Shown: piece by piece, positions 1,591-16,999 of the stretch
Layout: the number at the start of each line of letters is the position of its first letter
How positions within the stretch are numbered: the stretch's first letter is position 1
Source of the DNA: Bryobacterales bacterium
Lineage (GTDB): Bacteria > Cyanobacteriota > Vampirovibrionia > Obscuribacterales > Obscuribacteraceae
Assembly: GCA_903970295.1 (NCBI GenBank)
Contig: CAJCHQ010000339.1
Coordinates: forward strand, 1-25,480
DNA: 25,480 bases
Direction of reading: 5' to 3'
Position numbers and translations under genes: made by a program
Notes under the pieces: generated by a model
Told to the model about the DNA's origin: nothing
What the model saw: the letters and a program-made list of their open reading frames with translations, nothing else
Database searches by the model: none

Positions 1591-2895
1591 ATGACGAAGA
1601 CATACGTCTACTACGGAGGCGGCAGCTCTCGTGCGGCTGGCACCATGGCTTCCTTCATCAACCACGCTTCGCACTTCGATGGCGCCCACTTCATTCTGGT
1701 CGATATCGATGCCGACCGTCTGAAGATCGTGCTCAAGCTCGCGCAGAAAATGGCTCGAGAAGCCCAGGCCAACTTCACCATCTCCGCCACCACCGACGGT
1801 CGCGAAGCACTGCGCGGCGCCGACATCGTCCTCACCAGCTTTCGCCCGGGCGGTTTCGAAGCCCGTTACTTCGACGAGAGTATCCCGCTCAAACACGGCG
1901 TGCTCGGTCAGGAAACGCAGGGTCCTGGCGGCTTTTTCATGGCGCTGCGCACGATCAATGCAATCAAGACGATCGTCAACGACATGGAGGAAATCTGTCC
2001 GGATGCGATTTTGATCAATTACACCAACCCGATCAACATCGTCTCTCAGGCAGTCACCCAGAACAGCAAGATCAAAACGATTTCGTTGTGCGAGGGTCCG
2101 ATTGTTTTTCCTCGCTGGTTTGCCGAGGTGATTGGGCTCGACCCCAACAAACTCGACTCGACCATGATCGGCTTGAATCACGGCAGCTGGAGCGTCCGCC
2201 ATCTCTATGACGGCAAAGACTTCATGCCGATGCTGCAAGCAGGTTACGAACGCCTGCGACTGACGCCGGGCACTCCCGCCGACGACCTGCGTCTCGTGCG
2301 CCTGGCTGTGACGATGGGCAGCCTGCCGGCGCATTACTTCAAGTATTTCTACTTCAACGACGAAATTGTGGGCGAGCTTCAAGCCCGCCTGCCAAACACA
2401 CGCGCCAGCGACATCCTCGCCGAAGTGCCTTCTTACTGGGAGCACTACGTAGAGCAGTCGGAAACGCCGGCAGTATCAGCGCTCGTTCCCGAAAAGTCGC
2501 GGGGCGGAGTGCTGGAGCTGGAACTGGCCGTGAACGTGATCGCCGCCATCGTCAACGATCGCAACGAAGTGTGGCCGGTGAACGTGCCCAACAATGGCGC
2601 CATCGCCGATTTCCCCGATCACCTGGTGGTCGAGGTACCGGCGTATGTCGGCAAAGACGGTGCCACGCCGATCAAGAGCGGTCACATGCCCACGCATCTG
2701 CTCGGGCTGGTCGAACATCTGGCGCGCTATCAGCTCGCCACTGCCGACGCTGCCTGGAAAGGTACGCGCACCGATGCCATTCGCGCCCTCGCCGGTCACC
2801 CGCTGGTGCCAGGACTCGACATGGCGATCAAACTCTACGACGAAATGTCTGGAGCACTCCAGAACTATCTTCCAACCCGCCTCTTGAAAGGTTGA
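1591..2895 (+). CDS. Glycoside hydrolase family 4 (6-phospho-glycosidase type)
   Basis: A 434-residue NAD+- and metal-dependent GH4 enzyme, within the family's usual 400-480. It has an N-terminal Rossmann motif (Y-Y-G-G-G-S-S-R, 7-14), an acidic NAD-binding segment (V-D-I-D-A-D-R, 37-43), the GH4 block E-T-Q-G-P-G-G-F-F-M-A-L-R (108-120), and N-Y-T-N-P-I-N (143-149). A metal-ligand pair is likely at Cys167 and His197 (L-C-E-G, G-L-N-H-G). GH4 enzymes oxidise C3 of the glycone transiently to cleave glycosides, usually 6-phosphorylated ones, in the cytoplasm. Downstream neighbours are a NagB-superfamily protein 4 bp away and a BadF-type sugar kinase. This suggests an amino-sugar glycoside substrate such as a phosphorylated chitobiose-like disaccharide, by analogy to ChbF; that is inference. 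A GAAAGG-type SD precedes the ATG. Exact anomer and sugar specificity cannot be read from the sequence. Confidence 0.9.
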   Translation: MTKTYVYYGGGSSRAAGTMASFINHASHFDGAHFILVDIDADRLKIVLKLAQKMAREAQANFTISATTDGREALRGADIVLTSFRPGGFEARYFDESIPLKHGVLGQETQGPGGFFMALRTINAIKTIVNDMEEICPDAILINYTNPINIVSQAVTQNSKIKTISLCEGPIVFPRWFAEVIGLDPNKLDSTMIGLNHGSWSVRHLYDGKDFMPMLQAGYERLRLTPGTPADDLRLVRLAVTMGSLPAHYFKYFYFNDEIVGELQARLPNTRASDILAEVPSYWEHYVEQSETPAVSALVPEKSRGGVLELELAVNVIAAIVNDRNEVWPVNVPNNGAIADFPDHLVVEVPAYVGKDGATPIKSGHMPTHLLGLVEHLARYQLATADAAWKGTRTDAIRALAGHPLVPGLDMAIKLYDEMSGALQNYLPTRLLKG

Positions 2896-2899
2896 TACC

Positions 2900-3655
2900 A
2901 TGCGCCTGATCGTTCACGAAGACTACGCGGCAGCCAGTGAAGTTGCTGCCGATCGCATCGACAGCTTCGTCAAATTCAACCCCACCGCCAACATTTTGCC
3001 TGCCAGCGGCAACACTCCGGAGCTCGCTTACAACTTGTTGGCGGGTAAAAGGCGGCGGTGGAAGTTCGACCCAGCTGGCCTGAAAATATTTCAGGCTGAT
3101 GAATATCTCGGACTGCAAGCGAACGACGAACGAACCCTGTGGGGATGGACGGAACGAGCGTTCATCAAGCCACTCGGTTTGTCGGTTGCAAACGCCGTGC
3201 GCTTCCACACCGATACGACCGACCCCATCGCCACTTGCCAGGCCTGGGATGACGCCGTGGAGTCTGCGGGCGGTCTCGACCTCGCCATTCTCGGTGTCGG
3301 TCCTCCTCCCAAAGCGCACTTGTGTTTCAATGACGCCCCCTGCCTGCCGACCGACAACAGTCGCGTCGTCACGTTGCCGGAGGAAACGCTGGACAGCAAC
3401 GGTATCTACTGGGGCGGCCGTCATCGTGTGCCACCACAGGCGATGACAGCCGGTATGCGGCAACTGCTGGGATCGAAGGAGATCCTGGTGATTATTTCCG
3501 GAGCCAAGAAGCGCTCATGCTTGTACAGCATGTGCCTGGGACCGGTCACCGAAGACGTTACAGCATCCTACCTTCAATTGCAAGACAACGTCACGGTGAT
3601 TGCCGACCGTGCCGCTGCAGGCAGCCTCACCGACGGGATTTGGCCAAGGGTTTAA
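2900..3655 (+). CDS. NagB/6-phosphogluconolactonase-superfamily protein, divergent active-site loop
   Basis: This 251-residue protein has the NagB fold signature: A-S-G-N-T-P-E phosphate loop (35-41), F-Q-A-D-E-Y-L-G (64-71) containing the equivalent of E. coli NagB Asp72 (D67), and a loop L-G-V-G-P-P-P-K-A-H-L-C-F-N-D (131-145). NagB normally reads G-x-D-G-H-I-A-F-N-E in this loop. Here His140 matches H143, Asp145 replaces E148, Lys138 stands where D141 should be, and the loop is two residues longer with three prolines. Canonical NagB converts glucosamine-6-phosphate to fructose-6-phosphate and ammonia. The altered loop makes a plain nagB assignment unsafe, and a related aldose/ketose isomerase or deaminase is possible. 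The start ATG is 4 bp after the GH4 stop codon, with AAAGG overlapping the GH4 3' end, so the two are translationally coupled. Confidence 0.82.
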   Translation: MRLIVHEDYAAASEVAADRIDSFVKFNPTANILPASGNTPELAYNLLAGKRRRWKFDPAGLKIFQADEYLGLQANDERTLWGWTERAFIKPLGLSVANAVRFHTDTTDPIATCQAWDDAVESAGGLDLAILGVGPPPKAHLCFNDAPCLPTDNSRVVTLPEETLDSNGIYWGGRHRVPPQAMTAGMRQLLGSKEILVIISGAKKRSCLYSMCLGPVTEDVTASYLQLQDNVTVIADRAAAGSLTDGIWPRV

Positions 3656-3677
3656 AGCCCGTCGCCTTCCCGCATGC

Positions 3678-3684
3678 AGAAGGA
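3678..3684 (+). promoter_or_regulatory. Ribosome binding site deciding the kinase start
   Basis: AGAAGGA (completing AAGGAG with base 3684) lies 7 bases before the ATG at 3692. An in-frame ATG at 3674 sits upstream of this site with no SD of its own, so 3692 is the better start. It gives a protein beginning M-K-Y-V-L-G-V-D-A-G. Confidence 0.7.
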
Positions 3685-3691
3685 GACTTCC

Positions 3692-4696
3692 ATGAAATAT
3701 GTTCTTGGAGTTGACGCGGGAAACAGCAAAACAATCGCCCTGGTCTCGAAGCTAGACGGCACAATTGTCGGCTCCGGACGAGGCGGTTGTGGAGACATCT
3801 ACAACGCCGACGCTTCGTCACCGCAGCAAGCAGCACTTGCGGCAATGCAGAACGTCGACGCTGCTGTCCAAGGCGCTTTAAGTGCCGCGGGTTGCCGCGC
3901 AGACGACATTGTCTACGCCGCATTCAGTATGGCAGGCGCGGACTGGCTGGATGACTTCGCTTTGATTGAGAATGCCCTCAAGCAAACAAGTTACGCCCGC
4001 CATTTCACAGTCGTCAATGACGCAGTTGGCGCCTTGCGTGCCGGCGCCACAGACCACTGGGGCGTCTGCATTGCCAATGGCACAGGAGCGGCAATCAGCG
4101 GGCGTTCGCCGACAGGGCAAACGTGGCACGCCAGCTGGTGGCAACAGGGTGGGGGTGGTCGCAGCCTGGGTGTCAACGCTCTAGCAGCGATCTGCCGGGC
4201 AGAACTCGGCATCACCGACAGTACCATGCTCAGCGAAAAGATCGTAGCGTTTTACGGTATGAGCAGCGTCGAGGAAACCCTCTATCACTTCACGAAGAGA
4301 GAAGGTGTGCGCCTGGGAAACGTCGCCGGATTGGCGCGCACAGTCCTAGACGTAGCCGAAATGGGTGATCGAATCGCTCTAGAACTCGTCTGTGCCGAAG
4401 CCGTAAATTTAGCGGATTATGCACTGGCGGCGGCAAGGAAGGTGGGGATCGACCAAATGCCGTTCCCGCTCGTCTTGACTGGCAGTGTGTTCAAGCACAG
4501 CTCGCCGCTCATGACGAACACGATTCTGGCACGGGTGCATTCGACATGCCCTGCAGTAACAGTCTTGAGAAGTGAGCTGGAACCCAGTGCCGGTGCCGTT
4601 ATTATGGCTCTGGAGGGGGCAAATGTTGCCGTCGACGACAGGATTCGCAAACGACTGGAAGACAGCGCACCGAATGCCGAATTCTTCGTGACATAA
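3692..4696 (+). CDS. BadF/BadG/BcrA-type ATPase, probable N-acetylglucosamine/glucosamine kinase
   Basis: A 334-residue sugar kinase of the ASKHA fold. Phosphate-1 motif G-V-D-A-G-N-S-K-T (6-14), phosphate-2/catalytic region V-V-N-D-A-V-G-A-L-R-A-G-A (107-119) with Asp110 as likely general base, the N-G-T-G-A-A loop (129-134), and an adenosine-type L-V-L-T-G-S motif near residue 260 are all present. A cytoplasmic kinase of this group phosphorylates GlcNAc, GlcN or related sugars using ATP, which would feed the adjacent NagB-like protein. BadF-family homologues also activate radical dehydratases, but those need an iron-sulfur Cys pair and a dehydratase neighbour, neither of which is seen. It starts 36 bp after the NagB-like stop and is the last gene of the operon, followed by a long hairpin. 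Confidence 0.85.
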   Translation: MKYVLGVDAGNSKTIALVSKLDGTIVGSGRGGCGDIYNADASSPQQAALAAMQNVDAAVQGALSAAGCRADDIVYAAFSMAGADWLDDFALIENALKQTSYARHFTVVNDAVGALRAGATDHWGVCIANGTGAAISGRSPTGQTWHASWWQQGGGGRSLGVNALAAICRAELGITDSTMLSEKIVAFYGMSSVEETLYHFTKREGVRLGNVAGLARTVLDVAEMGDRIALELVCAEAVNLADYALAAARKVGIDQMPFPLVLTGSVFKHSSPLMTNTILARVHSTCPAVTVLRSELEPSAGAVIMALEGANVAVDDRIRKRLEDSAPNAEFFVT

Positions 4697-5063: not shown

Positions 5064-5459
5064 ATGACTGCAAATTCACGTCCAGAATCAACGCTCTCTC
5101 AGTCGGATGCCCATGCCGCCAACAAGCCCGATCATAAAACACAGCAATGGGAGGCGATTAGCGCCTCCATAAATGCGCCTCCCATTTCGAAGTCTGCTCA
5201 AGATCAGATCTCGAAGGACGCAGATCCGAATCCAAAACCTGACCTTTCGAATGATGTCAAACGGAGGATTACGAATCCTGGTTATGATGCTTCGAACGAC
5301 GCACACGTGACGACCACAATTGCTAGCGAACCAAAGGATTCAGTCACGACACCTGCTAATTTGAGTCGCGCCGTCAAAGGCATCCTTCATGGCTTCGCCA
5401 TCAATGGAGATTCCGAGCACACGCGAGAAATCCTACTGAGGGAGGGTAAGCGCAAATAG
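5064..5459 (+). CDS. Small disordered hypothetical protein
   Basis: 131 residues, polar and low in hydrophobics (rich in Ser, Asn, Asp, Lys and Pro), with no signal peptide and no TM segment. Residues 1-105 look disordered. The C-terminal 27 residues (A-V-K-G-I-L-H-G-F-A onward) could form a short amphipathic helix. The start is well supported by GGAAAGGAG 6 bases before the ATG. The gene lies 39 bp before the response regulator and is probably cotranscribed with it, so a regulatory or partner role is conceivable, but no family is recognised. Its coding sequence contains an unusual pair of alternative hairpins (5146-5186). Confidence 0.65.
   Translation: MTANSRPESTLSQSDAHAANKPDHKTQQWEAISASINAPPISKSAQDQISKDADPNPKPDLSNDVKRRITNPGYDASNDAHVTTTIASEPKDSVTTPANLSRAVKGILHGFAINGDSEHTREILLREGKRK
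5146..5186 (+). repeat. Inverted repeat with two competing right arms inside a coding region
   Basis: The left arm AATGGGAGGCG (5146-5156) is a perfect complement of CGCCTCCCATT (5176-5186). Its inner part GGAGGCG also pairs with the nearer CGCCTCC (5162-5168) over a 5-base loop. The two right arms are direct repeats of each other, so the two stems are mutually exclusive. The element lies about 80 bases inside the small hypothetical gene. Confidence 0.5.
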
Positions 5460-6239: not shown

Positions 6240-7451
6240 TCACGTCCGGAACGTTAACAGCCGTTCACAAGGGGGTCCCACGTAGCGCCCTCTGACGTAG
6301 TAGCGCCGGTTTATCCTCGGATCCCACGGGCGAAACCTCTCGAATCTAAAAGTCTGATTCGGCAATATTGTCGGCTCGGTTTGGTCGGTAAAGGGCCGGA
6401 GGCCGAGTTTGCTTAACGACTTTTCGACTGTTTCGACCTGATAGTCAGGAACGGGAAAGATGCGTGCAATCCCACCGGGCTGCAGTACTCGCTTTATTTC
6501 AGCAATTGACGTTGCTATCTTCTCTTCGTCAGCCGCTGAGAGGACTTTCACGCTTTCACCCAGATACATGGGCACAGAATAGTGCGCATAAACTCTCTTG
6601 AACGTGGTGTCAGCGAAGGGCAACTTTGTGCCTTCGCCGGCCAGCGTGTTTGGTTGCGGGAACCTGCGCCCATACAGACGCTCGAGCTCATTAGTGCCTC
6701 GCACGCCACGGAATAGGCCACGGTTTACATCTTCCAGGTCGCTCATTGCCAAACGAGGATCAAGGCTGAAAATGGTGCTTCGAAGCTTTGCTTGCCGGCA
6801 ATCACGAGCGAAATTCTGTCGGGAGCCAGAACCTAAATCCAAGATGCGCCAATTTTGATCTAGTTCTTCAGCTGGAATCCGCAGGTTTCTCAAATAGTGG
6901 TGGAGACCGCCTGCACTCATTAGTGATGCCTGATAAGTACCGGGCGCGGGTTGCGGGATGTCAAGACTCGCCCGGAAAATCGAGTTGCTCTCATCGATTG
7001 GCGTTAGAACTTCATGCTTTAACCATTCTCGACTGATTTCCTCGAGCTCGGGTCCTAGCTGTGCCATTCTGCTTTGCTCGATCTCTGTGAGCCCTGGCTC
7101 AAATTCTGCAATTCGCTTTGCCGCTGGCTTACGCCAAAATTCGAGCACCGGTTGGAATTTGTCTGCCTCACCTGCTTCTACAACTCTGCCAGCCAGTTTG
7201 AGAATGTTTCTTCCGGTGCTGAGAAATTCGGTCCCTTTGCCCTTTGTGCCAATGACGAACGCTGCTGTGGCTATCCCCAAGGAGATACCTGCAACTTCAG
7301 CCAAGTCTTTGCTCGGATGCTTATATGCATCCGAGACAGCGTTGATGAGCCAGCTTTGCGCGCTTTGATGTGGTGCGGAATTGTCACGCTCAATCGCATC
7401 CTTTTTGGTGGGATCCGCAAAGCTCGTCGAAATCAAGCTTGTTCCTAACAT
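6240..7451 (-). CDS. SAM-dependent class I methyltransferase-domain protein
   Basis: 403 residues. The C-terminal half is a Rossmann methyltransferase: motif I I-L-D-L-G-S-G-S (about 203-210), an acidic residue after strand 2 (S-L-D-P-R), G-T-K-L-P-F-A-D-T-T-F-K-R-V (motif IV region) and I-K-R-V-L-Q-P-G-G (motif V/VI). The N-terminal 190 residues are unassigned and contain a short hydrophobic glycine/alanine segment (about 54-69, A-G-I-S-L-G-I-A-T-A-A-F-V-I-G) that could be a membrane-interacting helix. Substrate is unknown. GGGGAG 4-5 bases before the ATG supports the start. It is the last gene of the minus-strand run, 168 bp after the stand-alone leaderless-domain gene, so it may belong to the same transcription unit and modify a surface protein or glycan; this is speculation. 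Confidence 0.8.
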   Translation of the reverse strand: MLGTSLISTSFADPTKKDAIERDNSAPHQSAQSWLINAVSDAYKHPSKDLAEVAGISLGIATAAFVIGTKGKGTEFLSTGRNILKLAGRVVEAGEADKFQPVLEFWRKPAAKRIAEFEPGLTEIEQSRMAQLGPELEEISREWLKHEVLTPIDESNSIFRASLDIPQPAPGTYQASLMSAGGLHHYLRNLRIPAEELDQNWRILDLGSGSRQNFARDCRQAKLRSTIFSLDPRLAMSDLEDVNRGLFRGVRGTNELERLYGRRFPQPNTLAGEGTKLPFADTTFKRVYAHYSVPMYLGESVKVLSAADEEKIATSIAEIKRVLQPGGIARIFPVPDYQVETVEKSLSKLGLRPFTDQTEPTILPNQTFRFERFRPWDPRINRRYYVRGRYVGPPCERLLTFRT

Positions 7452-7619: not shown

Positions 7620-8249
7620 TCAGTGCGGTGCAAGACCCAGCTGAGCCAACTGCAAACCCGATAGCGCTTGCGGCAATTCAGCTCGCGGTGCTTGAGAATT
7701 CGTGCTGTCGGCTTGCGAAAGTTGTTGAAATCCCTGGCTGAACTCGGAGAGACCGTCTGTTGCTATCTGTAGAAAATCCAAATTGCCGAGAGTCGATGAA
7801 TTCTCCGACGGCTGTTTAGAAGCTGCAGTCGTATCTGCCGACTGAGCACCAGGAGTGACACCATTAGCTTGCCCTACCTGAGGATTGAGCGCCTGAGCAA
7901 GGATACTCATAACTTGTTCGGGATGATACTCAGATGGCGAAGGCGATCCTAGGGAACTCGCAGAATCAGCCATCATCGAAGCCGCAGTGTTGTCGGCTGG
8001 AGACATCGCCGAGAAATTCAAAATCGAGCCATCCTGCGAATGCCCATCGTGGCTGAGATCGGAACGTCCATGGTGGCTATTTGCAGCAGTAGCGCCAGAG
8101 CCAGCACCACGAGCGGCGTTGGCTTGCGCTTCATCTACTTCATTGGCGGCATGGTCAGTAACTCTTCCGCTGCTCAAGAGCTGCAAGTACGACTGAGCAT
8201 CGGCAGTGTTTGGTGTTTGGTCAAGGGTGGCATTCGCTGCATTTGTCAT
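7620..8249 (-). CDS. Stand-alone copy of the leaderless N-terminal domain of the GH26 protein
   Basis: 209 residues, aligning end to end with residues 1 to about 210 of the next upstream gene product. Shared blocks include S-L/T-L-D-Q-T, Q-S-Y, L-S-S-G-x-V-T-D-H-A-A-N-E-V-D, L-N-F-S-A, an E/Y-H-P-E-Q-x-M motif and a closing A-Q-L-G-L-A. The copy ends exactly where the linker begins in the larger protein, so the domain boundary is marked by nature. It has no signal peptide, no TM segment and no recognisable enzyme motif. The composition (Ala, Ser, Gln, Asn, His) suggests a flexible N-terminal half followed by helices. CGGAG lies 8 bases before the ATG. Nucleotide similarity to the neighbour is still visible, indicating a tandem duplication. 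The family is unknown; possible roles are export signal, anchor or partner of the GH26 enzyme. Confidence 0.75.
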   Translation of the reverse strand: MTNAANATLDQTPNTADAQSYLQLLSSGRVTDHAANEVDEAQANAARGAGSGATAANSHHGRSDLSHDGHSQDGSILNFSAMSPADNTAASMMADSASSLGSPSPSEYHPEQVMSILAQALNPQVGQANGVTPGAQSADTTAASKQPSENSSTLGNLDFLQIATDGLSEFSQGFQQLSQADSTNSQAPRAELPQALSGLQLAQLGLAPH

Positions 8250-8384
8250 AATTTATGCTCCGGTACATATTTTGAATTTGGCATTCCAACACGCACCGAT
8301 TTACCGTCGCCGCATTGCTAGCGAAACGTCTTTCGTTGAGTCGTAAAGCGTGGTGGTATCTCTTAATCAGCCGAAAGATTGAGT

Positions 8385-10334
8385 TTAGGTTTCATCACCG
8401 TCTACGCCACCATTACTAAAATCCTGAACGTATGCGGCGTAGCTATTTGGAGAGTTCTCTAAAGTTGTTCCGACCCCACCGCTTGCACTATCGAAATAAT
8501 CCTGGAATGCGACGCCCTCGTTTTGTGACTGGGTATTTAAGAAATTAGCTATGTCGTTGATGAAGTTGGGGTCATCTCCATTACCGTACATCCCAGCATT
8601 CGAATTGCCGGACTGTTCGTACGGCGCAGCTACTGCATACTCGGGAATAGCAAATGGCTTGCCTTGCTGTTGGGCGAAAGCAGCTAGCTCATTTAACCCG
8701 CCCGCCTCGGTCGTTAAGGTGTTCCAAGTCTGTGACGAGTTGGGATTAGTGTTTCCCCAATCCTGATCGTAAATATCAACACCAATCGAATTCACGTTTG
8801 CATTGCCGGGATAATAATCTTCTACCGGAATGTTGTTATATTCGCCGTTTGCTGGATTCCAATCGAAGCTAAAATTGGCTCCCGGTACAGCCTTCATCGC
8901 CTCAGCAGCGTTGTTATAAGCATTGATGAAATCTTGCGGATTGCCGTCATAATTATCTGTTGCCCAGGGCCCATTCATTTCCACTCCCAATCGAATGGTA
9001 TCGTTACCCTGACCGGCAGCCACAAGTTGCTGCGCCATCTGGGTAAACTCGGCATCGTTGGCACCACTTGCGGTGGATGCCAATGTCTGTCCGTCGTATG
9101 TTAGCGGCACACCAAGAACCATGCCTTGCCCTGGGTTGGCCGCCACCCAACTTGCATATTGACCAGTCTCGTATTGCGTAGTTTGTGCTGCAGGCTGTGT
9201 CCAGTCAAGGTAAGCTGACGGGACAACAGGTTTTCCAAGCGCCTGCGATATTGAATCTGCCTCCTGGGCATCGGTGTCACCCCCGAAGAATGCTACAAAG
9301 CCAGCTGTGCCCGAGCTTGTGCTGCTGCCCAGATTGACTGTGGTACCAGTATCGCCACCAGTTGTAGAAGTGGCACCGGTACCGCCGCTTGTGCCATCGC
9401 CAAGGTTGACTGTAGTGCCGCTGGCGCCGTTTGAACCAGCAGCATCGCCTGTGCTACCAGTGGATGGTGTGCCAGTTGTCGCTTCGCCTGTGCTGACAGC
9501 GGGTGGTGTCCCAGTCGTAGCTTCGCCTGTGCTAACAGCGGGTGGTGTCCCAGTCGTCGCTTCGCCTGTGCTGACAGCGGGTGGTGTCCCAGTGACCTCT
9601 GCGGTTTCACCTGACGCGCTCGATGACGAGGATGATGATGCTGCTGCCGACAACGGATTGCCCGCACCGCTAGTTGCGGCAGTGGTCGCGCTCGTGTTGT
9701 TGTCAGACTGGTAAAGAGCAAGTCCTAGCTGAGCCATGTCCAAACCGACCTGCGCATTCAGTAAATCGGCTTGCGCCGCCTGCGAACTAGGATTCTGAAC
9801 CTGCGCGAACTGCTGAATCGCCTGGCTGAACTCTGCCACGCCGGCGGACGTCAGTTGCAGCGGATTCACACTACCTAGCGGCGAAGAGCTCTCTGCGGAC
9901 TGTGTTGAGGCTGCACTCGATTCGGCGCCCTGAGCGGGAGCCACATTGGCAGCGGTGCTTTGACCCTCCTGCTGACCGAGCGTTTGCGCTAGCTTGTTCA
10001 TGATCTGTTCGGGGTGAAATTCATTGCTGGAAGAAGATTTGGTTGACTTAGCGCCTTCACCCATGACTGAAGCTGCACTGCCCTCCCCCGGATTTAGCGC
10101 CGAGAAATTCAAAGCCGAGTCATTTTTTGCATGTCCATCGTGATGAGAGTGCCCATGACTGCTATCACCTCTGCTGCCACCATGTCCGGTACCATGACCG
10201 GCATGAGCCTTTGCGTTGTCTACTTCGTTAGCGGCATGGTCAGTAACCTGCCCGCTACTCAGCATCTGTGCGTAGGATTGAGTATCTGAAGAATTATTTG
10301 TTTGATCGAGGGATGTTTGTACTGCATTTGTCAT
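8385..10334 (-). CDS. GH26 beta-mannanase-like enzyme on a novel leaderless N-terminal domain
   Basis: 649 residues in three parts. Residues 1-215 are a novel domain with a His-rich tract (44-68) shared with the neighbouring gene. Residues 216-344 are a Ser/Thr/Pro/Gly linker with three identical 13-residue repeats plus one degenerate copy. Residues 345-649 are a GH26-like TIM barrel: opening G-F-V-A-F-F-G-G, acid/base Glu452 in R-L-G-V-E-M-N-G-P-W, and nucleophile Glu565 in K-P-F-A-I-P-E-Y-A-V. The two glutamates are 113 residues apart, close to the 108 of Cellvibrio Man26A. GH26 enzymes cleave beta-1,4-mannan and some mixed or beta-1,3 glycans, normally outside the cell. No Sec or Tat signal peptide is present, which conflicts with that location unless another export route exists. 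GGGGAA 8 bases before the ATG supports the start. It is followed at 135 bp by the stand-alone domain gene. Confidence 0.8.
   Translation of the reverse strand: MTNAVQTSLDQTNNSSDTQSYAQMLSSGQVTDHAANEVDNAKAHAGHGTGHGGSRGDSSHGHSHHDGHAKNDSALNFSALNPGEGSAASVMGEGAKSTKSSSSNEFHPEQIMNKLAQTLGQQEGQSTAANVAPAQGAESSAASTQSAESSSPLGSVNPLQLTSAGVAEFSQAIQQFAQVQNPSSQAAQADLLNAQVGLDMAQLGLALYQSDNNTSATTAATSGAGNPLSAAASSSSSSSASGETAEVTGTPPAVSTGEATTGTPPAVSTGEATTGTPPAVSTGEATTGTPSTGSTGDAAGSNGASGTTVNLGDGTSGGTGATSTTGGDTGTTVNLGSSTSSGTAGFVAFFGGDTDAQEADSISQALGKPVVPSAYLDWTQPAAQTTQYETGQYASWVAANPGQGMVLGVPLTYDGQTLASTASGANDAEFTQMAQQLVAAGQGNDTIRLGVEMNGPWATDNYDGNPQDFINAYNNAAEAMKAVPGANFSFDWNPANGEYNNIPVEDYYPGNANVNSIGVDIYDQDWGNTNPNSSQTWNTLTTEAGGLNELAAFAQQQGKPFAIPEYAVAAPYEQSGNSNAGMYGNGDDPNFINDIANFLNTQSQNEGVAFQDYFDSASGGVGTTLENSPNSYAAYVQDFSNGGVDGDET
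9440..9593 (-). repeat. 39-bp tandem repeat coding a 13-residue linker repeat
   Basis: Three near-identical 39-bp units (9478-9515, 9516-9554, 9555-9593) encode T-G-T-P-P-A-V-S-T-G-E-A-T each time. A fourth, degenerate unit at about 9440-9477 reads T-G-T-P-S-T-G-S-T-G-D-A-A. The near-perfect DNA identity points to recent expansion by slippage or recombination, so copy number may vary between strains. Confidence 0.85.
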
Positions 10335-10539: not shown

Positions 10540-11622
10540 TTAACGAACCACAATCACTCGAACCATCTGAGCACCACTATTGGTTTGGAAGTTACCGGAA
10601 GCATTGAAGCCCAGAGATAAAGTTCCCGTGCCAGGCGGAGGGAAATTCAATTGATTGGTACCTAGAAAAAACGTGTCCGGCACGTTCGCTGCAATCGGAC
10701 CTGTTTTGCCGACAACTCCAACTAAAGACGCAAACGGAGCTGCTGGATCCGGAACACTTCCCGGCTGAACTAAGCCCGGAACACCATTAGCATCTCGCGG
10801 TGGCAAGCCTGCCGTCTGCCATGTGCCAACAGCTTGCGAGTCCAGCCAAATTTTTTCTCCCGGTGCCACAGTCAATTGCGTTGGTGTCCAATTAGGATTG
10901 TTCGCCGCTACCAAAACCACATTGACACTAATTACTGTCTGCCCGGAGCTGGCTATGCGATCGTAGATGCTGGGCATGTTCCAATCGGTCTTGTTCGGCG
11001 ATCCGCTGTTGCTTTCAGTCGAAATTAGGTTTAAGACTGGAATGTCGGCAGTGTTACCCTGGGGAGCTTCCCTTTCCAGCCCAGTCGGATGTTCAGCTGA
11101 TCTGCTCGCACTATAAGTGATCACGGCTGGCTTGCCGAGTCCTGGCACTGAACCTAGCACCGGCAAAAACGAAAGATCGATCGCAGGACCAATTTCGAAA
11201 GTTGACACGGCGGTGCATTCGTACATCCAAGTAGTTAAATCGATGGGCGGGGGCACCGGCATATTTGGGCCGAAACGTTCCGTTTGAGGAGAGCGAAAGT
11301 TTGTTGAGTCGATATAAAGATCCACGCCACTACCACCATAACCGCCTACCGCCTTCATCTTGGCGAATCTGCTAAAGCCGCTTTGTGCGAAGACATTGGC
11401 AACTGTTTGCACAGAATCGAGAGCATCCGAATAACGCTTTTGTTGAGAGGCTCTGGAGGCGGCCTCATGCGAGAGCAAGTAAGTTGCACCGACGCCTGTG
11501 ACTAGACCGAACATGTCGATGATCGGTACGAAGATAAAAAATATAAGCGCAAACAATGTCAAAGGTAATTCAGCTAAGCTACTACCTGCAATTGATCGAA
11601 CGCGTCTCGGTCTCAGTGCCAT
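10540..11622 (-). CDS. TadE-like pseudopilin fused to a LecA/PA-IL-like lectin domain
   Basis: 360 residues. The N terminus is TadE-like: a basic start, the prepilin-style G-S-S-L-A-E-L-P-L-T-L (13-23) with the typical Glu, and one TM helix (about 19-42). A middle region (60-230) is unassigned. Residues about 235-360 resemble the Pseudomonas LecA (PA-IL) galactose-lectin fold: A-P-G-E-K-I-W-L-D-S-Q-A-V-G-T-W, then A-P-F-A-S-L-V-G-V-V-G-K, and F-N-A-S-G-N-F-Q-T-N-S-G. In LecA the last segment holds the calcium ligands. Aligned here, D100 is Asn340, T104 is Asn344, N107 is Thr347 and N108 is kept as Asn348, so calcium and sugar binding may be altered. The protein is probably inserted in the membrane and displayed outside, as an adhesin-like minor pilin. 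GGGGAA precedes the ATG. Confidence 0.72.
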   Translation of the reverse strand: MALRPRRVRSIAGSSLAELPLTLFALIFFIFVPIIDMFGLVTGVGATYLLSHEAASRASQQKRYSDALDSVQTVANVFAQSGFSRFAKMKAVGGYGGSGVDLYIDSTNFRSPQTERFGPNMPVPPPIDLTTWMYECTAVSTFEIGPAIDLSFLPVLGSVPGLGKPAVITYSASRSAEHPTGLEREAPQGNTADIPVLNLISTESNSGSPNKTDWNMPSIYDRIASSGQTVISVNVVLVAANNPNWTPTQLTVAPGEKIWLDSQAVGTWQTAGLPPRDANGVPGLVQPGSVPDPAAPFASLVGVVGKTGPIAANVPDTFFLGTNQLNFPPPGTGTLSLGFNASGNFQTNSGAQMVRVIVVR

Positions 11623-11859: not shown

Positions 11860-12864
11860 TTATGTAGAGGCGTACGCTGCCAAATCAGAGGTATTAGGCA
11901 ACTGTAGTTTCATGCCTGCCAGCAGCTCCGAATCCGGTGGTAATTTATTGATTTGCTCGACTAGTCGACCGTATCCATTGTTGTTGAACAACTTTGATGC
12001 AATCGAATTTGAGGTCTCTCCTGATTGCACAACATAATGCTGCCGGGAAGCAGGCGAATCCTTAGGCGTTTCCTGAACCTTGGGCCGATGTCTCCCCAGC
12101 AGCTCAGACTGGAACAACTGACCATCACCATTTTGCAGGGCCAGGCGATCGCCATCGAATTTCATTTGATACGTTGCCTGGGGAGTTTTAAAAAAGCTGC
12201 CTTTAGAATTTGTGTGAACTGCACCCGAAAGAACTTGGGCATCGTCACCGGTGCCAACCTTTAGCGAAGCAAATTTTGCCCGCGAGGTGCCATAAGCCTG
12301 ATCTGCTTGGGCGATCACTGCAAACGCTCTATTTTCAGCTTGGCTGCTTTTGGGCGGGTGATGAGTTTCGCCTTCTCCCACACACTTGAGTGCAGCAGCC
12401 TCGCTTGCTTCCTGGCGTTTGCGCATCACTGTCAGTGGTCTGACAGATTGCTTGAATACAGACTCGCATACCGCACTCCAAATGTCATCATTGGCAGCTG
12501 GAGAGTTTTTACCATCAGTGAGCGCATCTAAAAATGATATTTCGCCACTCGATCCTGGTTTGGGGAAAGCATCGCCGATATCCGCCGACATTTTCGAAAA
12601 CGCCTGGTTCTGCGCCGTCTCGAATGCATTTGGGCCGGCAGCAATCTGGTTGAACGAAAACTCGTGGACATCGGACATCGTCGTCGCGGGAGCAAGTTTT
12701 GCACTGACATCGCCAACTGCAGATGGCGCTCTCGATGGCCGCTGCGCAAAAGCGCTTTCTCTTAGCCGCTCGGATATGTCATCAGCGCCATATTCAGAAT
12801 GGCTCTGGCTGGGCGCTGACAAACTGCTGTCATAAGAATGAATTGGTAAGGTTTGCGATGTCAT
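11860..12864 (-). CDS. LysM-domain protein without signal peptide
   Basis: 334 residues. Residues 276-323 form one LysM module (H-Y-V-V-Q-S-G-E-T-S onward, ending G-M-K-L-Q-L-P), a glycan-binding motif that recognises peptidoglycan or chitin-type GlcNAc chains. Residues 1-270 are mostly polar and probably flexible, with a possible small beta-rich region around 200-255 (Y-Q-M-K-F-D-G-D-R-L-A-L). There is no N-terminal hydrophobic segment, so export through Sec is not indicated, although LysM usually acts in the cell wall. The SD is weak (CCGAG about 11 bases before the ATG). It lies between the histidine kinase (121 bp upstream) and the TadE-lectin gene (237 bp downstream). Function is unknown beyond glycan binding. 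Confidence 0.78.
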   Translation of the reverse strand: MTSQTLPIHSYDSSLSAPSQSHSEYGADDISERLRESAFAQRPSRAPSAVGDVSAKLAPATTMSDVHEFSFNQIAAGPNAFETAQNQAFSKMSADIGDAFPKPGSSGEISFLDALTDGKNSPAANDDIWSAVCESVFKQSVRPLTVMRKRQEASEAAALKCVGEGETHHPPKSSQAENRAFAVIAQADQAYGTSRAKFASLKVGTGDDAQVLSGAVHTNSKGSFFKTPQATYQMKFDGDRLALQNGDGQLFQSELLGRHRPKVQETPKDSPASRQHYVVQSGETSNSIASKLFNNNGYGRLVEQINKLPPDSELLAGMKLQLPNTSDLAAYAST

Positions 12865-14520: not shown

Positions 14521-14550
14521 TTGTTTAATTTCTCCGCTTGCGCATATGAT
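14521..14550 (+). promoter_or_regulatory. Candidate sigma-70-like promoter for the TadG-like gene
   Basis: TTGTTT (14521-14526) and TATGAT (14545-14550) are separated by 18 bases, in the 131-bp divergent region between the histidine kinase and TadG-like gene. The -10 is a good match and the -35 is partial. A transcript starting near 14557 would leave a leader of about 45 bases. Confidence 0.4.
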
Positions 14551-14601
14551 TCTAGGAGAATGATCCAATCAGCAACAAACGAAATTACCAGGACCCGCAA
14601 A

Positions 14602-16233
14602 ATGAGACCCAACCGCGATCGCGGCAATGTTCTAATTCTGGTTGTAGTAATTTTTCTAGCCATTGTGCTGGCGATCGGTCTTTTTTCATTGTCGTATACT
14701 CGCCTCGTCGGCAGCCATCAGGAGCATAAAACGGCAATCGAATCCGCCGCTCTAGCGGCCGCAAACGATCTGAGCCGGATTGTGATCGAAGATCCTAATT
14801 TTGGTTTTATCGGGCTCTCTGACGCGCCGCCGACTCTACCCGGCACAATAGCCGGCGATCGCTTTTACACTTCCGTCCAAAGTATCAATACTCTGATGGC
14901 CAGAATCAGACTTGACATGATCATCGCCGACAAATTGCGCAATCTAACCATGGGGATGCTTCTCGCTCGCGAATATCAACAGGCACGACAAGCGCTCGCT
15001 CGTCTATCAACAAAGCTCAACGAGGCAGTCCTACCAGGAGGTTCGGCGCGCGCCGCTGACGGAACGATCATCCGTCCATACAACGATGCTCAACAAGCTT
15101 ACCTGGCAAACTGTGTGCGATTGAATGGTGGCAAAAGCGATCTCAAACAAGGGTCGTTGAAAATCACCCTGGGGCTCGCTACCGGGCTCTGCACGAATAC
15201 GCCCATTCCTACACCGACAACAATCGCCAGTTTAAGCAAAGATCTAATGCAAGAGAATAATTGCTATCTGCCATTTGTCGACATTCCTTATAACGGTTTT
15301 GATTTCGTTTTCTCGGCCGGAGCCGATTCGCAAGAATTGGTCGATGTGAAGACCTTTTATACAGGTACAAAAGGATTGCCATATGCACTCGGTGATATTG
15401 TCAAATGCGAGGCCGACCAGATTACAGATTACAAAAATCAGTATGCGCAAACAAATGTGGCGACTTTGCACATTGCTGCTTGTGCTCAACCAGCGTGTGT
15501 GCGAGACCCGATTCCGAACGAAAGCGCCTTAGCGCTTCGATTCTCCTCGGGCACTTTTGCAAACATCGCCAGACCAGGCGACATCCTCTTCAATGCGCGA
15601 ATTCAAAATGCTCCCGCAGATGTCGTGGCCTCCCCATCGACTGGCGATGTTCCTCCAAACTCGATGTTACCCACAATTTTGGTTGATGCGACAACGACTC
15701 ATCCTAGCTTTGGCGTTGTGGCTAATCTTGCGGTTTATGACTGGATAAGAAATCAGGGTCTGAAGATCGATGTAGGTTCTTTGATCAATTTTCTCAACAA
15801 GCCGTTTGACAAATCAATTGCAGCAAATATCCCTCAGGTGCATTATTTCCGAGCCGACACCGGAGGCAATATTGTCGAAACTGTCACTGCCGACGATCCG
15901 ACATTGGCATTGCCTGTCAGTCAAAATCAGTATTACGCGATGTCGGGTGGTGTCATCTGCAACGACGACACAGCGCCGAACCCAATTTGGTACGATTTAT
16001 TCGTCAGAGATTTTGTTTATAAGCTAGGACGGATCAAAGGTGGCTTGCACGCCGGTGAACCCTTCGGCACTGGCGGTGCAATCATTCCCGCTAATGTACC
16101 GAAAACTCCTCCACCTCTCGATGAGGGTGCCACTCAGTACGCCACTTTTCCAACTGGCCCCGCCGGTGGTGGCGTGCGTCCCACATACGGAAAAATGGGG
16201 ACGGCAGTCGAGATCAGATTTAAGACGCGATAG
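14602..16233 (+). CDS. TadG-like membrane-anchored protein
   Basis: 543 residues from the ATG at 14602, chosen because AGGA lies 8 bases upstream and because the protein then starts M-R-P-N-R-D-R-G-N-V-L-I-L-V-V, the normal TadG layout. Alternative upstream starts at 14521 (TTG) and 14560 (ATG) have poor SD spacing. One TM helix (about 9-31) is followed by T-A-I-E-S-A-A-L-A-A-A-N-D-L-S (44-58), matching the conserved helix after the TM segment in TadG/TadE proteins. The remaining 480 residues are predicted extracytoplasmic, contain several cysteines and no recognised von Willebrand domain. TadG-type proteins are minor components of Flp/Tad pili or related secretion systems. Here the assembly ATPase, secretin and prepilin peptidase are not in the window, so the machinery must lie elsewhere. 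Confidence 0.75.
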   Translation: MRPNRDRGNVLILVVVIFLAIVLAIGLFSLSYTRLVGSHQEHKTAIESAALAAANDLSRIVIEDPNFGFIGLSDAPPTLPGTIAGDRFYTSVQSINTLMARIRLDMIIADKLRNLTMGMLLAREYQQARQALARLSTKLNEAVLPGGSARAADGTIIRPYNDAQQAYLANCVRLNGGKSDLKQGSLKITLGLATGLCTNTPIPTPTTIASLSKDLMQENNCYLPFVDIPYNGFDFVFSAGADSQELVDVKTFYTGTKGLPYALGDIVKCEADQITDYKNQYAQTNVATLHIAACAQPACVRDPIPNESALALRFSSGTFANIARPGDILFNARIQNAPADVVASPSTGDVPPNSMLPTILVDATTTHPSFGVVANLAVYDWIRNQGLKIDVGSLINFLNKPFDKSIAANIPQVHYFRADTGGNIVETVTADDPTLALPVSQNQYYAMSGGVICNDDTAPNPIWYDLFVRDFVYKLGRIKGGLHAGEPFGTGGAIIPANVPKTPPPLDEGATQYATFPTGPAGGGVRPTYGKMGTAVEIRFKTR

Positions 16234-16375
16234 TCGGTAATACGGCCAGCGAGCAACATGGTCGCGAGCCGCAACGACAATTTGGGTCGACAACAGCCGG
16301 AGCACAACTAAGTCGCCCTCCTAAATCTCTCAGCAAGCGAGTATGCTCTGCATGATTACTGATGAGGAACCAGGC

Positions 16376-16999
16376 ATGCGGTGCGATAAAGAATTTTATA
16401 TTAGCTTGGTCGTTCTCAGTCTGACGTGGTTGTTAATGGTCTTGATACCACCCTGGTCTATTGCCGATCTCAATACACCTGCGGGGCATTACCCGCTAAC
16501 CTTTTCCTCTTATGTCGAGTATGCCCCGATAAATTGCCAGCCTGTGAATAAAGGTTTTGATCCGGCGATTATTAATTGGCTGCGCCTGGGGTTGCAGTTT
16601 GTCGTCGTTGCCTCGATCCAGCTATTTCTTATTAAGTGGGCTGCTAAAATCGACAGAAATGCGCGCTGGCACGACGCGCCGTCGCACAAGTTTCGAATCA
16701 TCGCCCTCGCCCTTACAGTGCTTTCGCTCGTTGGCGGTCTGACTGTCGCAAAAAGCGATATCGAATTGAACTATGTTTTCCTTGCTCGCTCTCAGTCGGA
16801 GCTTTCTCCCGTGTACGCGCCGATAGAACCTTTGCCGGCCGGCACTGTAATCACGTCCCACATGGTCGCGCCAGTTTTTGGCGAGCTCATTCACGACTCG
16901 AAGCTCATAAGGAATTCCAGTACCCTACAGGGTCTGCGAACGACTAGGGCGCTGGGTAGAGGCGACTACCTTCGCACGGATGATGTGATGTCTCCTTGA
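16376..16999 (+). CDS. Three-TM protein with SAF/CpaB-like C-terminal domain
   Basis: 207 residues from the ATG at 16376, supported by GAGGA 7 bases upstream; an in-frame ATG at 16343 lacks a good SD. TM helices are at about 8-24, 70-88 and 107-124. The C-terminal segment (145-207) reads Y-A-P-I-E-P-L-P-A-G-T-V-I-T ... A-L-G-R-G-D-Y-L-R-T-D-D-V, the 'predicted-to-be-periplasmic' SAF pattern found in CpaB/RcpC and FlgA, where the domain is thought to bind glycans or pilus parts. CpaB normally has one TM helix, so the three-TM arrangement is unusual. Position 142 bp after the TadG-like gene supports a Tad-related role. The middle 45-residue loop (25-69) should be extracytoplasmic. Function is otherwise unassigned. 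Confidence 0.62.
   Translation: MRCDKEFYISLVVLSLTWLLMVLIPPWSIADLNTPAGHYPLTFSSYVEYAPINCQPVNKGFDPAIINWLRLGLQFVVVASIQLFLIKWAAKIDRNARWHDAPSHKFRIIALALTVLSLVGGLTVAKSDIELNYVFLARSQSELSPVYAPIEPLPAGTVITSHMVAPVFGELIHDSKLIRNSSTLQGLRTTRALGRGDYLRTDDVMSP

Follow-up and report, generated by a model that had tools for sequence, protein, structure and literature searches.

We identified, in a 25,480-nucleotide stretch of DNA (the window), a tandem pair of minus-strand open reading frames (ORFs) in which a leaderless GH26 enzyme, P0002, comes first and is followed 135 bases downstream by P0001, a free-standing copy of the enzyme's N-terminal tail. The arrangement is real and modestly unusual, bringing together a leaderless GH26 group, an extreme charge composition and one member with a duplicated, otherwise unseen tail; a literature search, which leaves absence unproven, did not find a description of the pair. 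The explanation we place first, and hold tentatively, is that P0002 may be a secreted enzyme whose tail would serve as a spacer or tether and for which an ABC-type exit is most likely, with P0001 as a tail-only paralogue retained as a protein.

Table 1 Coordinates of the tandem pair and its parts within the window
Feature	Positions	Strand	Basis or description
P0001	7620..8249	(-)	ORF, 209 aa, stand-alone tail copy, ends ...LGLAPH-stop
P0002	8385..10334	(-)	ORF, 649 aa, leaderless GH26 enzyme bearing P0001-type tail
P0002 residues 1-208, tail common to P0001	9711..10334	(-)	modelled: short helices in disorder
P0002 residues 209-336, Thr/Ser/Gly/Ala-rich linker	9327..9710	(-)	composition; 39-bp tandem repeat 9445-9593
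P0002 residues 337-649, GH26 (beta/alpha) barrel	8388..9326	(-)	structure and family comparison
Glu452, candidate catalytic acid/base (RLGVEMNG)	8979..8981	(-)	conservation + Man26A alignment
Glu565, candidate catalytic nucleophile (IPEYA)	8640..8642	(-)	conservation + Man26A alignment

The sequence-only reading had proposed that the front end of the enzyme was duplicated, and the duplication is borne out by 104 of 211 residues common to P0001 and the start of P0002 (49 % identity, E 3e-47), with DNA similarity of about 66 % identity, in two pieces, running from each ATG to approximately codon 206. The P0001 frame is intact over its 209 codons at 52 % identity to P0002 over aligned codons, and the differences between the two show a third-position excess (61, 53 and 111 of 204 for the three codon positions). 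Values of dN/dS were 0.34/1.69 by NG86 and 0.42/0.80 by YN00, with dS near saturation and a YN00 ratio of 0.52 indicating only mild constraint, and a ribosome-binding-like CGGAG, judged by eye, lies upstream of P0001. This sequence pattern favours P0001 as a protein under constraint, retained rather than decaying. Its stop exactly at the end of homology, three residues past residue 206, the lack of any linker trace in the three downstream frames read by eye and the failure to find an orthologue would all suit P0001 as the decaying remains of a second, broken copy of the enzyme gene; however, an intact frame at only 49-52 % identity, the third-position excess, dN/dS below 1 by both methods and a ribosome-binding-like site of its own render such decay unlikely. 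Pairwise identities were 56.9 % between P0001 and the relative P0003, 60.0 % between P0002 and P0003 and 52.0 % between P0001 and P0002, and since P0001 is about as distant from P0003 as P0002 is, the duplication is not recent and may precede or follow the P0002/P0003 split. We would regard P0001 as an old tandem paralogue of the P0002 gene that lost linker and barrel while the protein was kept.

The upstream regions of the two genes have nothing significant in common, promoter-like sites (9 vs 7.0 expected) and terminator-like sites (7 vs 8.1) were at chance level, the intergenic strand 8250-8384 folded no better than shuffles (z -1.46), and tRNA and Rfam searches returned no match. The next ORF downstream of P0001, likewise on the minus strand, is methyltransferase-like (6240-7451; PF08241, 21.3 bits, cut-off 21.2) and contains a single hydrophobic stretch, residues 50-68.

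Neither protein carries a Sec or Tat signal, as had been claimed from the sequence. In-frame stops two codons upstream of each ATG (TAA for P0001, TAG for P0002) make a missed leader impossible for either. Querying with whole P0002 recovered at least five proteins (P0002 itself and P0003-P0006) among 7986 scored candidates; P0003 has the same layout at 72 % identity, while P0004-P0006 have the barrel in common with P0002 but not the tail, their front ends being different. The maximum 15-residue hydropathy within the first 50 residues was -0.23 to 0.23 in all six proteins (P0001-P0006), none has RR in its first 40 residues, and the N termini of P0003-P0006 are all neither hydrophobic nor twin-Arg, with the true start of P0006 uncertain on its 2252-bp contig. 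As judged from these sequences, leaderlessness is a property of the GH26 group and not of this tail, and because P0004-P0006 are leaderless with other front ends the tail cannot be a family-wide export signal. The residues following the barrel differ between homologues with no conserved C-terminal signal visible. Pattern matches in genome_contigs for relatives of whole P0002 and of its GH26 part (93 and 348) and in viral_contigs for P0002 relatives (107) included none that was confirmed.

P0002 is best explained as a GH26 beta-glycanase, putatively mannanase- or glucanase-like. The nearest match to its (beta/alpha)8 barrel among solved structures is to GH26 enzymes, and PF02156, at 13.9 bits on P0002, falls below its curated cut-off of 20.2; it matches five of five family pieces when E values up to 1 are admitted, the best being 1.3e-6, and is annotated in the database for P0005 and P0006. 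Two glutamates, Glu452 (E120 of the aligned piece) and Glu565 (E233), are invariant in all five family members and in three distant actinobacterial proteins, and align with HENAG and TEFG respectively of Cellulomonas fimi Man26A; they are candidates for the acid/base and the nucleophile respectively, the catalytic roles of such a pair in GH26. The tail is thus joined to the sort of enzyme that normally works outside the cell, as the sequence-only reading held, and P0002 would be expected to cut an external beta-glycan. Between tail and barrel, residues 209-340 hold no Lys or Arg. The corresponding linker of P0004, a JGI metagenome protein, consists, at residues of about 190-345, of 12-residue units of the TPNTSSGEAATA kind, nearly identical and repeated in a long array with many more copies than in P0002; linker length is thus variable between relatives.

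The tail itself evolves rapidly about a small number of short helical blocks, since between P0002 and P0003 it is 60.4 % identical as against 88.5 % for the barrel, with the linker at 58.4 %. The model of P0001 has a mean pLDDT of 47.1 with no residue at 70 or above and places helices at 15-26, 29-49, 88-95, 110-121, 159-182 and 191-203, and that of the P0002 tail has pLDDT below 50 across residues 1-156; on these models the tail is likeliest a mostly disordered, lineage-specific stretch. Invariant columns number 43 of 90 within helices and 40 of 117 outside, a contrast that 12 of 207 circular shifts equal or exceed, so that a concentration of conserved columns in the helices is only suggestive. 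P0001 as query matched only itself among 606 candidates (proteins of 0.55-1.75 times its length), no stand-alone orthologue being found among them, and P0002 residues 1-212 matched only P0002 and P0003 among 1363 candidates, even at E up to 10. Searches with P0001 gave no match by tblastn in plasmids and phages, none in PHROGs and no Pfam family; the sole PHROGs match of the P0002 tail, a tail-fibre family at E 0.56, was taken as chance.

These searches do not sustain the proposal that the 210-residue stretch is a general export or anchoring module: among the matches listed it is found only in P0001, P0002 and P0003, and the database search for other fusions of the stretch found none on other enzymes, nearly the outcome (confinement to this pair) named in advance as counting against it. 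As an export signal of the family it is further contradicted by the different front ends of the leaderless P0004-P0006 and by the want of a confident fold. A narrower version, in which Ser/Thr/Asn/Gln-rich disordered N termini would be read by a one-step route, either type III-like (flagellar) or undescribed, with P0001 as cargo or carrier, appears improbable: over its first 40 residues each of P0001-P0003 is polar, lacks a hydrophobic core and has no Lys or Arg before residue 24, and conserved blocks lie at residues 9-43, helix positions included, but the other N termini of P0004-P0006 and the absence of the stretch from other enzymes in the searches with P0001 and P0002 residues 1-212 argue against it. 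A short N-terminal motif common to the tail, P0004-P0006, the LysM-like protein described below and ORF 5064 was not established, since local alignments of the first 50 residues gave p 0.026 at best in 15 comparisons, and the idea was dropped; the tails of P0004 and P0005, compared with each other, gave p 0.018.

P0001 could also be a partner or regulator that pairs with the P0002 tail through a C-terminal helical hairpin (about 158-206) and sets oligomeric state, location or activity, a reading we consider rather unlikely though somewhat better placed than decay or a tail-borne signal. The genes are in tandem on the same strand, the modelled helices are homologous (159-182 and 191-203 in P0001, 158-177 and 185-217 in P0002) and helices 110-121 and 159-182 are amphipathic relative to shuffles (p 0.023 and 0.001). 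The models are however of low confidence, of ten helix segments compared with shuffles only five reach p<0.05 for amphipathicity, the final helix not being among them (p 0.56, 0.62), and pairing is not seen as conserved because no stand-alone orthologue was found. We favour, tentatively, a 208-residue tail of short amphipathic helices that would act as spacer or tether for the enzyme rather than as a family export signal, with P0001 probably following the enzyme to its destination and associating with the same surface or matrix.

The scarcity of Lys and Arg in P0001 and P0002 is a new observation, missed by the sequence-only reading. Lys+Arg make up 10 of the 649 residues of P0002 (1.5 %) and 5 of the 209 of P0001 (2.4 %), against 627 in 6356 pooled residues (6.1-13.6 % each) for 17 other window ORFs that we chose for comparison, giving binomial tails of 5e-18 and 2e-5 respectively. 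Across P0003-P0006, which are 523-686 residues long, the Lys+Arg count is 8-18, and Cys is absent from all six proteins, as it is from one of the 17 neighbours (ORF 5064-5459). The pI of P0002 is 4.05. Two Streptomyces relatives with hydrophobic N termini, H1 and H4, have 13.3 % and 10.7 % Lys+Arg, and an Arthrobacter relative, whose annotated start is doubtful, has 5.0 %. The maximum charge per 20 residues was +1.4 for P0002, +2.2 for P0001 and +2.1 to +6.1 for the 17 neighbours. Cationic stretches block ABC export according to two studies (PMC9223453; PMC11031901), and because its linear charge density peak of +2.2 exceeds the +2 mark of PMC9223453, P0001 is not clean by that mark. Depletion of Lys, Arg and Cys would suit signal-peptide-free export, and agrees in this with the earlier expectation of an exported enzyme; a low Lys/Arg content fits other extracellular routes too.

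That P0002 might be cytoplasmic, degrading imported oligosaccharides with export needless, we consider very unlikely. It lacks a signal of any known kind and sugar-phosphate genes are present at a distance of about 4 kb or beyond, but the long Thr/Ser-rich linker, the pI, the absence of Cys and 1.5 % Lys+Arg are unlike its cytoplasmic-type neighbours, and the Streptomyces relatives carry hydrophobic leaders. The sugar-phosphate genes (1591-4696, plus strand) are relatives of a GH4-like alpha-galactosidase, a glucosamine-6-phosphate deaminase and an N-acetylglucosamine kinase, each below curated NCBIfam cut-offs.

Tad-pilus-like genes lie around the pair at 14521-16233 (+), 16343-16999 (+) and 10540-11622 (-), the set consisting of a Tad-domain protein (PF13400, 23.2 bits, cut-off 22.3), a SAF-domain protein, presumably CpaB-like, and a protein with a hydrophobic N terminus and no family match, which we take to be TadE-like. 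A second leaderless protein of extracellular kind is encoded at 11860-12864 (-), where residues 277-323 resemble a LysM domain and score 18.1 bits in Pfam against a cut-off of 20.9; its N terminus is not hydrophobic and is without similarity to the tail, and no start codon intervenes between the ORF and an in-frame TAG 12 codons upstream. In style the genes may resemble those of Obscuribacterales (Melainabacteria).

P0002, made without a leader, would leave the cell without Sec or Tat and in one step, with an ABC-type (type I) exporter or one like it as the most likely exit. No exporter gene was recognised on reading the ORFs of the window. RTX-type nonapeptide repeats (glycine/aspartate-rich) were not found, the sole tandem array in the window being the linker repeat and Pfam showing no RTX-type match, and P0002 is therefore not classed as an RTX type I substrate. 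According to PMC2275737, PlyA and PlyB of Rhizobium leguminosarum are leaderless glycanases that need the PrsDE type I system; with leaderless type I glycanases already in print, the undescribed route put forward by the sequence-only reading is not required. A more far-reaching idea, to which we give very little weight, is a lineage-specific system, independent of Sec and Tat, for the export of proteins strongly depleted in Lys/Arg and Cys; it would recognise N-terminal tails that are disordered and evolve fast, relying on their composition and short helices rather than on a fixed sequence, with P0001 as a stand-alone tail and carrier or surface partner of the enzyme. Were the enzyme shown to be outside the cell, the GH26 group would provide a clean case of a change from a signal-peptide route, as in the Streptomyces relatives, to leaderless export, matched by whole-protein loss of positive charge; a charge rule for one-step exporters would become testable in natural sequences, and P0001 would offer a convenient means of asking whether tails of this sort carry information.

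Among characterised enzymes, the lichenase CtLic26 (2vi0) and Cellulomonas fimi Man26A (2bvt) are 17-18 % identical to P0002 over the barrel; P0002 differs from them in lacking a signal peptide, in its disordered tail and in having hardly any Lys or Arg. Two Streptomyces plasmid glycosyl hydrolases, WP_331738150.1 (homologous at P0002 residues 393-649, E 1e-17) and WP_329404948.1 (residues 393-603, E 7e-16), have the same Glu pair at 26-27 % identity but, unlike P0002, a hydrophobic N terminus, 10.7-13.3 % Lys+Arg and 5-7 Cys. By mode of working, and not by sequence comparison, P0002 resembles the PrsDE substrates PlyA, PlyB, PlyC and RL2412 of R. leguminosarum described in PMC2275737, leaderless polysaccharide-cutting enzymes sent outside, as we propose for P0002; those proteins are predicted there to have type I features such as glycine-rich repeats, whereas none is seen in P0002.
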